From NCBI GenBank assembly GCA_031459765.1, contig JAVKHY010000005.1, forward strand, positions 68,577 through 132,576: a DNA stretch of 64,000 bases. The letters are read 5' to 3'. Below, in pieces: positions 25,165 to 31,264 of the stretch (the first letter of the stretch is position 1; each line of letters begins with the position of its first letter). The notes beneath the pieces were generated by a model. It was not told the origin of the DNA and searched no databases. It saw only the letters and a list, made by a program, of their open reading frames with translations. The position numbers were made by a program, and so were the translations under genes. The DNA is from Armatimonadota bacterium (GTDB lineage Bacteria; Sysuimicrobiota; Sysuimicrobiia; Sysuimicrobiales; Kaftiobacteriaceae).

Positions 25165-26118
25165 TCAACTCCAGATCGTGATGCCGGCCCCGTGCTCGCG
25201 GGCCAGGTCGTAGACCAGCTTCATCGCGGCCACATCTTCGAGCGCCACTCCCTGGGATTCGAACAGGGTGATGTCGTCGGCGGCGGCGCGGCCGCGGACC
25301 TCCCCCGTAACGATCCGGCCCAGTTCGACGACAGTCTCCCAGGTCGTGGCTCCTGCCCCGACCGCGTCGATCAAATCCCCGCACTCGACGCGGGCCTGGA
25401 CCAGATCGTCGACCGCACACACCGCGGCCCGCCCCACTGCCTCCGTGTCCAGCTCGCGGCGGGAGGCGGCGTTCGACCCCACGGCGTTGACGTGCATCCC
25501 CGGCTCCAGCCAAGCGCCGAGGAGGACGGGCTCGCGGGCATTGGTGACGGTGATCACGATCTCCGTCCCTTCGACCGCCTCGCGGCCCGACGCTTCGGCC
25601 ACGACCTCCGCCCCCAGTTCCTGGATCATCTCCGCGGCGAAGGCCTCGCGCCGCGCCGGGGACCGACTGTAACACTTCACCAGCGCCACCGGCCGCACCC
25701 GGCTCACCGCGAGCACCTGGCTGCGGGTCTGCCAGCCGGTGCCGATGATACCGACGGTGCCGGCCTCGGGGCGGGCCATGTACTTCGTGGCCACGGCGCT
25801 GGCCGCTCCGGTGCGCATCTGTCCCAACCGATCCGCCTCGATGACCGCCAGCAGCTCTCCGCTCTCGGCGCTGTAGAGGTAGGCCAGGAAGCGGGCGCCG
25901 CCCGGGACGCTGGTGTACGCCTTGAACCCCATCACGCCGAGCGCGGGCAGGCCGGCGGCCATGACGTGCAGGGTGCTGCGTCCGGTCTGGATCCGCTGGC
26001 GGGGCCGGTTCACAACCTCTCCCCGCCCCTGTCGGCGGAAGGCGTCCTCCACGACGGCGATCACGTCGTCGATGCGCAGCAGCCGGGTTACATCGGATTC
26101 GGTCAGGTAGAGCGCCAT
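25165..26118 (-). CDS. Ornithine cyclodeaminase / mu-crystallin family protein
   Basis: A 317-residue NAD(P)-binding enzyme. Family marks are the N-terminal LTESDVTRLLRIDDVIAVVE, the substrate Lys context GVMGFKAYTSVPGGARF, and the Rossmann segment AGTVGIIGTGWQTRSQVLA. VNAVGSNAASRRELD and AVGAGATTWETVVELG further support the family. Members include ornithine cyclodeaminase, alanine dehydrogenase and ketimine reductase; sequence alone does not separate them. It precedes pepA and is divergent from the Nudix-methyltransferase fusion, with a shared upstream region of about 65 nt. Confidence 0.87.
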   Translation of the reverse strand: MALYLTESDVTRLLRIDDVIAVVEDAFRRQGRGEVVNRPRQRIQTGRSTLHVMAAGLPALGVMGFKAYTSVPGGARFLAYLYSAESGELLAVIEADRLGQMRTGAASAVATKYMARPEAGTVGIIGTGWQTRSQVLAVSRVRPVALVKCYSRSPARREAFAAEMIQELGAEVVAEASGREAVEGTEIVITVTNAREPVLLGAWLEPGMHVNAVGSNAASRRELDTEAVGRAAVCAVDDLVQARVECGDLIDAVGAGATTWETVVELGRIVTGEVRGRAAADDITLFESQGVALEDVAAMKLVYDLAREHGAGITIWS

Positions 26119-26182: not shown

Positions 26183-27415
26183 ATGATGAGGATCGACGAG
26201 TCGTGGTATCGTCGTCCGCCGGAGGCGGAGGCCCACACGGCGGCCGGCGGGGTGGTGGTGCGGCGCGCGGGAGAGCGCCTGGAGGTCCTCCTGGTGCGGG
26301 AGGGAGCGGAACACGGCTACGTGCTGCCCAAAGGGCACGTGCATCCGGGCGAGCGACTTGAGGAGGCGGCGCGGCGGGAGATCGCGGAGGAGGCGGGAGT
26401 GCGGGATCTGGTGCTGCTCGGTCCCCTCGGCGTGCGGGAACGGTTGGACTACCGGAAGACCTCCTGGAAGATCGCCCACTACTTCCTCTTCGCCGCTCCG
26501 GATGTGCCGGGGGATCCTCAGGCCGGAGGGAGGACCGGGGCGGAACGCGCTGTCGGCCTGCCGGCCTCCGCCGCGACGTGGGCGCCCCTCGACGACCTTC
26601 CGGCGATCTTCTGGCCCGAACAGCGGCAACTGCTGACGACCTCGCGGGAGGACATCCGGGCCGCCTTCCTGCGGTACGAGGCGCAGCGCCAGTTCGGCCG
26701 GCAGGCCCGGTCCTACGCGCGCAGCGTGAGTCACGCCCAGGATCGGGATCTGGAACTGCTCGTGCGCCACCTGGCGCTCCGGGAGGAAGACCGGGTGCTG
26801 GACGTGGCCACCGGCACCGGATTCACGGCGCGGGCCCTGGGCCGGGTGGTCCGCGCCGTGATCGGGATCGACCTGACGCTCGGGATGCTCCGGGAGGCGC
26901 GGCGGATCGCCCCCGGGCCCCGCCTGCGCTGGGTGGTGGGGGACGCGGGGGCGCTGCCCTTCGCCGATGCCGTCTTCGACGTCGTCACCGTCCGGCGGGC
27001 CGCGCATCACTTTCCCGACCTGGTCGGCGCGCTGCGGGAGATGCTCCGCGTGCTGAAGCCGGGTGGACGGATCGGGATCGTGGACCAGGTCCCTCCGGAG
27101 GGTCCCGGCGGCGAGCTCATGGAGCGCCTGGAACGGTTACGGGACCCCAGTCATGTGAAGGCGCTGACCGCCTCCCGCTGGCGGCGGCTCGTCGGGGAGC
27201 TCGGCGTGGCGGTGAGGTTTCAGACCGTCGTGGAACGGAAGGTGACGCTGGCCGACTGGCTGGATCTGGCCGGTGCGGACGCGTCCCGACGGCGGGCCGT
27301 CGAGGAGGCTCTGGCGCGGGCCGACCCGGAAGCGCGCCGGGACATCGGCGACGACGGCACCGCCCCGCTGTCCTTCATGAAGCGGTGGATCGTCGTCACG
27401 GGGCTGAAGGGGTGA
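26183..27415 (+). CDS. Nudix hydrolase - class I methyltransferase fusion protein
   Basis: A 410-residue two-domain protein. The N-terminal ~170 residues are a Nudix domain with a complete Nudix box (GHVHPGERLEEAARREIAEE, ending AGV). The C-terminal ~230 residues are a UbiE-like SAM methyltransferase with motif I VLDVATGTGFTARAL, the acidic IGIDLTLGM and LPFADAVFDVV. The junction (EQRQLLTTSREDIRAAFLRY) is short and in frame, with no sign of frameshift. Nudix enzymes cleave nucleoside diphosphate linkages; the combined role is unknown. ATG 26183 is chosen because the first conserved residues follow it; the frame also opens at 26117, overlapping the divergent gene. Confidence 0.85.
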   Translation: MMRIDESWYRRPPEAEAHTAAGGVVVRRAGERLEVLLVREGAEHGYVLPKGHVHPGERLEEAARREIAEEAGVRDLVLLGPLGVRERLDYRKTSWKIAHYFLFAAPDVPGDPQAGGRTGAERAVGLPASAATWAPLDDLPAIFWPEQRQLLTTSREDIRAAFLRYEAQRQFGRQARSYARSVSHAQDRDLELLVRHLALREEDRVLDVATGTGFTARALGRVVRAVIGIDLTLGMLREARRIAPGPRLRWVVGDAGALPFADAVFDVVTVRRAAHHFPDLVGALREMLRVLKPGGRIGIVDQVPPEGPGGELMERLERLRDPSHVKALTASRWRRLVGELGVAVRFQTVVERKVTLADWLDLAGADASRRRAVEEALARADPEARRDIGDDGTAPLSFMKRWIVVTGLKG

Positions 27416-28250
27416 AGAGAAGGCTCGCAAACCCCGCGCGGGCTTCAAGGGCCGGAAGCCCGGTCTCCACGAAGCGCGTCCAGGCCGTCCGGATCTCGTC
27501 GCTCTGCGCCTGAGGCAGGTGCAGCCCGAGCGGCGGTTCGGGCCACGGCGGAGCGTCCACCTCCAGGGCCAGATCGTCGCAGTAATCCAGACAGGCCTGG
27601 AGGAACTCCTCCGGATCGCCGCGCCGGCCGTCGCCGAGGTCGAAGGGTGTCGCCGTCCGGTCGGTGTAGGCGGCCAGCAGGAGCCGGGTCATCGCGGCCA
27701 GCGCGGCCAGGGCCCGCACCTCTGTCCATCGATCCTGGATGCTCTGCTGCTCCTCCGCGGCCCGGCGGCCGAGAGTCGCCACCCAGCGGTCGACGACGGC
27801 CAGGCACCTCCCCACCGCGCGGCGCAGTCCGGCGTCGTCGGATCCGGCCAGGGCCAGCACCGCCACCGCGCCGTCCCGGGCCTTCGCCGCCTGCACCGGG
27901 GTGGCGATCCGCGGCATCACCACGTGCCGCTCGAGCCACCCATCGACCATCAACTCGATCTGCGACCGCGCGGCGTAGCGGTCCGCCCGTCCCCTCGCGG
28001 CTGCAGCCAGCCGCCGCCGCACGGCCGGACCCAGGGTCCCGGCCGCCTCCAGGAGGATGCGCAGCGGGACGTAGACAAACAGCGCCCACACCAGCAGGAC
28101 GAAGAACCACTGGTGTAGACCTCCCCCTGAGGCCAGCAGGACGGCCATCGTGAGGAGGAAGCCCAGGACGGCGACGACGGCCAGCGCCCGCCCCGCCGCG
28201 CCGCGGGTGCGCGCATCGGCCAGCCTGCTGAGCAGCAGCCGCAGGTCCAT
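27396..28250 (-). CDS. Hypothetical membrane protein with two N-terminal helices
   Basis: A 284-residue protein of no recognised family. Residues about 18-41 (GRALAVVAVLGFLLTMAVLL) and 47-70 (QWFFVLLVWALFVYVPLRIL) look like transmembrane helices. The rest is soluble, Ala/Arg/Leu-rich and probably helical, with several Trp and an acidic stretch (LDYCDDLALEVDAPPW). The first soluble segment after the helices is Arg-rich, consistent with a cytoplasmic side. The last 20 nt overlap the convergent fusion gene. ATG 28250 is the only sensible start. It is divergent from the YceI gene. Confidence 0.7.
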   Translation of the reverse strand: MDLRLLLSRLADARTRGAAGRALAVVAVLGFLLTMAVLLASGGGLHQWFFVLLVWALFVYVPLRILLEAAGTLGPAVRRRLAAAARGRADRYAARSQIELMVDGWLERHVVMPRIATPVQAAKARDGAVAVLALAGSDDAGLRRAVGRCLAVVDRWVATLGRRAAEEQQSIQDRWTEVRALAALAAMTRLLLAAYTDRTATPFDLGDGRRGDPEEFLQACLDYCDDLALEVDAPPWPEPPLGLHLPQAQSDEIRTAWTRFVETGLPALEARAGFASLLFTPSAP

Positions 28251-30301: not shown

Positions 30302-31264
30302 ATGCCCTCCATCGCGGAGACCACGCTGGAGATGGTCCAGCTCGTGCTGCCCGGGCAGGCCAACGTCCGCGGCACGCTCTACGGGGGCATGATGATGCAC
30401 TGGATCACTACCGCGGCCACGATGGCCGCGATGCGGGTGGCCCGCGGCTCCGTGGTCCTGGGCAGCATGGACGACCTGGACTTCGTCGCGCCGGTGAGCA
30501 TCGGCGACCTCGTCACCCTGCGCGCCCAGGTCGAAGACGTGGGCCGGTCCTCCCTGGAGATCGGAGTGGAGGTGCACGCGGAGGATCCGCGCCGGGGCCT
30601 CCGCCGGCTGGCCACCGCCTCGCACCTGGCGATGGTGGCCGTGGACGACGCGGGGCGTCCCCGGCCGGTAGAGACCGCGATCACGCCCGCCGACCGGGAG
30701 GAGGAGGCGATCGCCGCGGCCGCGCGCCAGCGCCGGACGGCGCGGAAGGCGGCCCTGGCCGACCGCCGAGAACCGGCCGCGCCGGTGGAGGGCGACGAGG
30801 GACTCACCCACGCGATGCAGGTGGCGCGCATCGTCTTCCCCGAGGACGCGGTGCTGGGGACGATGATGTTCGCCGGGCGGCTGATGATGCACCTGGACGA
30901 AGCGGCCTCGATTCTGGCCCTGCGCTACTGTCGGGGGCCCATCGTCACCGCCTCGATCGACGCCCTGGCCTTCCACGCCCCGATTCGCGTGGGAGAGATT
31001 GTGATCTACCAGGCGGCGCTCAACTACGTCGGGAGGAGCTCGATGGAGATCGGCGTCCGCGTGCTGGCCGAGCACCCGCTGGAGGGCCGCCGCCGCCACA
31101 CCTGCACCGCCTTCCTCACCATGGTGCACATGACCGACCAGGGACCCCAGCCTGTTCCGCCCTTCACCCCCCGCACCGAAGCGGAGCGCCGCCGCTGGGC
31201 GGAAGCCGAGCAGCGCCGCGCCTCCCGGCAGGCCCGCCGCCAGCGGCTGCGGGAAGCGCACTGA
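30302..31264 (+). CDS. Acyl-CoA thioesterase with two hotdog domains
   Basis: A 320-residue protein made of two related hotdog domains (about residues 1-120 and 160-285). Each contains the GGMMMHW or GRLMMHLDEAAS type motif and a following VGRSSLEIGVEV / VGRSSMEIGVRV repeat. The 45-residue linker is Arg/Glu/Ala-rich, and the C-terminal 30 residues are strongly basic. This layout is that of ACOT7-like cytoplasmic acyl-CoA thioesterases, which hydrolyse long-chain acyl-CoA. The stop shares a base with the ATG of the DedA gene (TGATG). Confidence 0.87.
   Translation: MPSIAETTLEMVQLVLPGQANVRGTLYGGMMMHWITTAATMAAMRVARGSVVLGSMDDLDFVAPVSIGDLVTLRAQVEDVGRSSLEIGVEVHAEDPRRGLRRLATASHLAMVAVDDAGRPRPVETAITPADREEEAIAAAARQRRTARKAALADRREPAAPVEGDEGLTHAMQVARIVFPEDAVLGTMMFAGRLMMHLDEAASILALRYCRGPIVTASIDALAFHAPIRVGEIVIYQAALNYVGRSSMEIGVRVLAEHPLEGRRRHTCTAFLTMVHMTDQGPQPVPPFTPRTEAERRRWAEAEQRRASRQARRQRLREAH

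Follow-up and report, generated by a model that had tools for sequence, protein, structure and literature searches.

We found that a single gene in the stretch of DNA analyzed here (64,000 nucleotides, referred to as the window) encodes one protein that carries an intact Nudix domain ahead of a class I SAM methyltransferase. The gene is a single open frame of 410 codons plus TGA, within a stop-to-stop span of 434 codons, and is composed as follows.

26183 to 27415, plus strand: Nudix-methyltransferase fusion gene, 410 amino acids plus stop, with whole or partial orthologues at the corresponding site of nine relatives.
26237 to 26635, plus strand: Nudix domain, residues 19 to 151 (PF00293, 1.6e-17).
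26333 to 26401, plus strand: complete Nudix box, residues 51 to 73 (translation and alignment).
26645 to 26722, plus strand: linker helix, residues 155 to 180 (AlphaFold2 model and alignment).
26684 to 27412, plus strand: YcgJ-type class I methyltransferase, residues about 168 to 410 (PF08241 and similarity to YcgJ, 1xxl).
26798 to 26824, plus strand: SAM motif I, LDVATGTGF, residues 206 to 214 (translation and alignment).

A preliminary description of this gene had placed an intact Nudix box and an intact SAM motif I in one uninterrupted 410-codon frame, and both the Pfam domains and the translation agree with it. NUDIX (PF00293) scored 64.2 bits at residues 19 to 151 against a gathering cut-off of 21.1, and Methyltransf_11 (PF08241) scored 83.9 bits (1.3e-23) at residues 206 to 297 against a cut-off of 21.2. 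Since both scores are well above the cut-offs, the two calls are not chance motifs. The Nudix signature has the pattern G-x5-E-x7-REUxEExGU, which is present in full at residues 51 to 73 of the translation, and G51, E57, R65, E66, E69, E70, and G72 are unchanged in all nine aligned sequences. An AlphaFold2 model (mean pLDDT of 81.8 and pTM of 0.70, with four sequences in the alignment and low confidence at residues 1 to 8 and 108 to 128) contained both folds, joined by a continuous helix spanning residues 155 to 180. The start at 26183 or 26186 is backed by the residues right after it, IDxSWYxRP, which are conserved in relatives. A consensus search found no promoters or terminators. We considered whether the Nudix half might be a non-enzymatic ligand-sensing module that regulates the methyltransferase, as non-catalytic Nudix domains typically lie within multidomain proteins (sections of a review of the Nudix clan, PMC5389931). 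However, a complete Nudix box with acidic residues invariant in 9/9 aligned sequences is unexpected for a pure sensor, and we regard this reading as very unlikely.

The draft genome containing the window (G000) is one of 43 from the phylum in our searchable set, 10 of which belong to the same family (f1). The gene-neighborhood comparison proposed in the preliminary description recovered the fused order at a conserved site in four more species of the family; the copies are clean in three of them and frameshifted in the fourth. The clean copies, from G002 (65% identical), G003 (56%), and G005 (55%), extend the fused state over three genera (g1, g2, and g4), and their linkers vary in length and sequence between genera. 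The methyltransferase half of G002 contains a short run of unread bases; an in-frame GTG lies just ahead of the methyltransferase fold in this species and may allow additional internal initiation. G001 also has the fused order, but a tandem duplication of ∼19 bases close to the beginning of the Nudix domain puts its gene out of frame, which means that this copy is either broken or misassembled (L102:380-540).

That two relatives have two genes at this site and that the G001 draft shows a broken frame could suggest that no fusion exists in vivo, the appearance of one being due to an assembly or sequencing error or concealing two proteins made from two starts. Yet three assemblies besides the window are cleanly fused, at 55 to 65% identity and with differing linkers, and four clean fused assemblies (window included) from three genera exclude a joining error. 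In the window, the frame contains no ATG, GTG, or TTG from the end of the Nudix domain up to residue 182, where the first in-frame start codon past that domain, a GTG, falls within the conserved N terminus of the methyltransferase. Since the linker lacks all three codons, a separately started methyltransferase is unlikely in the window. The clean fused relatives and the linker devoid of start codons thus led us to reject assembly error and a double start, the two outcomes that the preliminary description had named as refuting it, and we place their probability close to nil. The gene is a true fusion that encodes a single protein, as the preliminary description had it.

Two genes on the opposite strand delimit the site.

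25165 to 26118, minus strand: divergent neighbor, ornithine cyclodeaminase/mu-crystallin family (PF02423, 6.2e-67; synteny).
27396 to 28250, minus strand: convergent neighbor without a Pfam family, forming the other border of the insertion site and overlapping the fusion gene by 20 bases.

The ornithine cyclodeaminase-family gene borders the site in all 10 family genomes, and the orthologue of the gene at 27396-28250 directly borders the other side in 9 of them. In G005 (L104:2082-7078), ∼5 kb of other genes separate the fusion gene from its usual convergent neighbor. The product of 27396-28250 is a conserved protein with no Pfam match, and its gene adjoins that of the cyclodeaminase in different families of the order. 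The conserved neighborhood also includes a thioesterase-superfamily gene (30302-31264 in the window) whose single product contains two 4HBT stretches.

The methyltransferase is present at the site in 10/10 family genomes, which display three states. It is fused in five (G000, G002, G003, G005, and the frameshifted G001), and it is split from the Nudix gene in two, as adjacent separate genes in the same direction: in G008, the Nudix frame ends at a TAG and the methyltransferase starts further downstream, and in G009, the Nudix TAA is followed four bases on by the ATG of the methyltransferase. The remaining three (G004, G006, and G007) have the methyltransferase alone at the site, and no Nudix match above 39% identity was found genome-wide (best matches, 36 to 39%); these genomes are drafts of 86 to 93% completeness, although the site was covered by sequence in all three. 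Outside the family, the cyclodeaminase gene and a gene of the 27396-28250 type were adjacent, with no methyltransferase between them, in 5 of the 6 regions retrieved from order-level outgroups (G010, G011, G012, G022, and G029). In the region retrieved from outgroup G013, neither a 27396-28250-type gene nor a methyltransferase was found; the stretches of G015 and G018 held only an M20 gene and are outside this count. The comparison of the family site with the outgroup arrangement lacking the methyltransferase suggests that the methyltransferase was probably inserted, in antisense orientation, between two old neighbors in the ancestor of the family. The Nudix gene either stood beside it from the outset or was added later.

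We then compared trees of the locus. A tree of nine concatenated neighbor proteins (gapped, with G001 contributing only 592 of 2,727 positions) grouped g1 with g3 (support of 100) and g2 with g5 (99), and its deeper nodes were weak (63 and 55). The methyltransferase trees placed g3 with g5 (74 and 87), in contrast to its position with g1 (100) in the neighbor-gene tree, and the supports of the Nudix tree (29 to 54) were too low to place free-standing copies. Parsimony was run on two topologies entered by hand, with G001 scored as fused despite its frame being broken near the start. On the neighbor-gene tree with equal costs, a fused ancestor required 3 changes, whereas an ancestor with the methyltransferase alone required 4 and one with separate genes 5. 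When fission cost four times as much as fusion and a penalty was set on regain of the Nudix, separate genes followed by three independent fusions became slightly cheaper (5 versus 6). These counts fit either one fusion followed by splitting and loss, or several fusions. These results bear on the reading that the loss of a stop codon ran two genes together without functional consequence. The variation of the linker between genera, the slightly lower cost of repeated fusion when fission is expensive, and the split or incomplete pair in 5 of the 10 genomes are all in keeping with a neutral event; on the other hand, equal costs make the fused state ancestral, so that the joint would have persisted over several genera. 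Overall, we hold a neutral fusion to be improbable.

The explanation that we favor, with about an even chance of being correct, is that of a bifunctional protein whose Nudix half, from the neighborhood of Ndx1 and Ap4A hydrolases, and YcgJ-type methyltransferase half each perform their own reaction. The Nudix half would depend on a metal to hydrolyze either a dinucleoside polyphosphate or a compound linked to a nucleoside diphosphate, and the methyltransferase half would use SAM to methylate a small molecule. Fusion would serve mainly to provide the two enzymes in equal amounts as housekeeping activities, not to hand over a substrate. Since the methyltransferase persists in related species that lack the Nudix half, a hand-over does not seem to be required and an obligatory two-step reaction is unlikely; the two halves are probably independent of each other. 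Nevertheless, that some species do without a partner is no proof of independence in those that retain both, and the occurrence of the fusion in g1, g2, and g4 with all key residues of the Nudix box conserved suggests that some coupling is useful. The preliminary description had proposed either a sequential reaction on a nucleotide-linked compound or a coupling of Nudix housecleaning to methylation. The latter is possible. In the former, the Nudix domain would cut a nucleotide-linked metabolite and the methyltransferase would methylate the released product, a scheme consistent with a covalent fusion in which neither motif is damaged in any of the four clean genomes and with the adjacent codirectional genes of two further genomes, including the stop and start four bases apart in G009. 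However, it is disfavored by the 3/10 family genomes with the methyltransferase but not this Nudix at the site, by a Nudix gene standing alone in an 8.4-kb contig in G014 (a 38% methyltransferase match lies on a different contig), and by the lack of a nucleotide-sugar or other biosynthetic cluster around the gene. We consequently judge the sequential scheme unlikely, and the overall reading of the preliminary description is partly supported. Ten genomes with one locus in three states, together with outgroups free of the insert, constitute a natural test of fusion as functional coupling, and the value of the gene lies more in probing the meaning of a fusion than in representing a novel type of system.

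We found no fused copy in the other 33 genomes of the phylum. Free-standing orthologues of the Nudix half occur in G014 (65%) and in G029 (53%); in G029, a methyltransferase of 45% identity lies ∼14 kb away from the Nudix gene. Among 1,095 genomes from three other phylum-level groups (301, 396, and 398 genomes), none of the matches listed covered both halves, in a scan that was insensitive in that few best candidates per genome were scored under strict E-value limits and that, having returned no match whatever in the 398-genome group, had no internal control there. In G247, G065, G231, and G309, matches continued past stop codons into the region upstream of the methyltransferase, and these candidates were discarded, as the fetched regions contained no Nudix. 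Likewise, no Nudix adjoined the methyltransferase relatives outside the family in 178 sequences (loci and window, with many overlapping copies). None of 519 matching plasmid records had a single place covering 80% of the query, and a scan of viral contigs, for which one protein supplied six short peptide patterns, yielded no related protein; on these two grounds, we rejected a mobile or phage origin. The predicted structure of a 559-residue Sylvanvirus methyltransferase (BFVD model A0A3G5AKG4) aligned with the fusion model over 357 columns at a high rmsd of 11.3, and this protein might carry a second domain as well. Proteins whose names join a methyltransferase to a NUDIX hydrolase occur in public annotation, perhaps with the two in the opposite order. 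Among the papers listed, our literature search found neither a published Nudix-methyltransferase fusion nor the phrase "Nudix-methyltransferase," and the word methyltransferase is absent from the main text of the Nudix clan review (PMC5389931).

The nearest solved relatives of the methyltransferase half, by both sequence and fold, are Bacillus subtilis YcgJ (PDB 1xxl) and BH2331 (PDB 1vl5). YcgJ matched residues 184 to 409 at 2.5e-33 and was the best Foldseek match of the model (3.9e-23, 34% identity, TM-score of 0.86 by target length); judged by aligned length, none of the best 50 Foldseek rows was a solved chain spanning both halves. The preliminary description had called this half UbiE-like, which holds at the level of the Methyltransf_11/Ubie superfamily but not for UbiE/MenG proper: TIGR01934 scored 74.7 bits against a cut-off of 158.35, and the other NCBIfam equivalog models for UbiE/MenG were also below cut-off among the matches listed. 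A genuine MenG is encoded elsewhere in the G000 genome (204.7 bits). Given the missed cut-offs and this true MenG, we rejected a UbiE/menaquinone role and assign the half, from its sequence and fold, to the YcgJ-type class I SAM enzymes. YcgJ itself is given only as a putative SAM-dependent methyltransferase in PMC3662625.

Unfused relatives of the methyltransferase provided a side lead on the wider group. In other families of the phylum, 7 of 10 loci (L180, L181, L183, L184, L186, L188, and L189) place them beside ilvB and ilvC, frequently together with ilvN and leuA. In loci of alphaproteobacterial type, the methyltransferase follows leuC and precedes leuD in all four examined (L029, L030, L033, and L037, three from Hyphomicrobium and one from a "Proteobacteria bacterium"; L034 was fetched and left out), and one of three plasmid contexts, on a Pseudomonas plasmid (L190), reads leuC-leuD-MT-leuB. 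For the two large groups, NCBIfam naming of the neighbors used a single example per group. No ilv or leu gene was found by the fused gene in the window neighborhood or among the conserved family neighbors, and the ilv/leu-linked groups and the family methyltransferase do not form one clade in the tree. This gene context does no more than hint at a carboxylic-acid metabolite as the substrate of the wider methyltransferase group. Trans-aconitate methyltransferase offers an analogy, in that it neutralizes a carboxylic acid by forming a methyl ester. The location of unfused relatives beside branched-chain amino acid genes in three lineages could thereby point to a two-headed metabolite-repair enzyme, whose Nudix half would clear a harmful nucleotide while the methyltransferase would methyl-esterify an unwanted carboxylic acid, a reading to which we attach little probability. 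The series of fused, split, and Nudix-free loci is also useful toward the substrate of YcgJ methyltransferases, which have solved structures.

Compared with known systems, the Nudix half had its best profile matches to Ndx1, the diadenosine hexaphosphate hydrolase of Thermus thermophilus (3.9e-11), and to the Ap4A hydrolase 3i7u (1e-10), with many Nudix classes close behind. It is thus weakly nearest to the Ndx1/Ap4A hydrolases, a similarity that makes its substrate class a guess. The fusion has in common with both proteins the PKG residues that open the Nudix box, but Ndx1 and 3i7u are free-standing and short, at 126 and 134 residues, whereas the family of the fusion has added N-terminal WYxRP and C-terminal FWPEQR segments. 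YcgJ and BH2331 correspond to the entire methyltransferase half as class I enzymes and, unlike the fusion protein, lack a Nudix domain; UbiE/MenG share only the superfamily. A Nudix domain fused to a second enzyme is known from the mycobacterial Nudix-phosphatase, in which the partner is not a methyltransferase. The same holds for Tnr3/Nudix of thiamin metabolism (a table entry in PMC4921024). The protein described here joins two enzyme families that are each very common, and this new pairing of domains is limited to one lineage.
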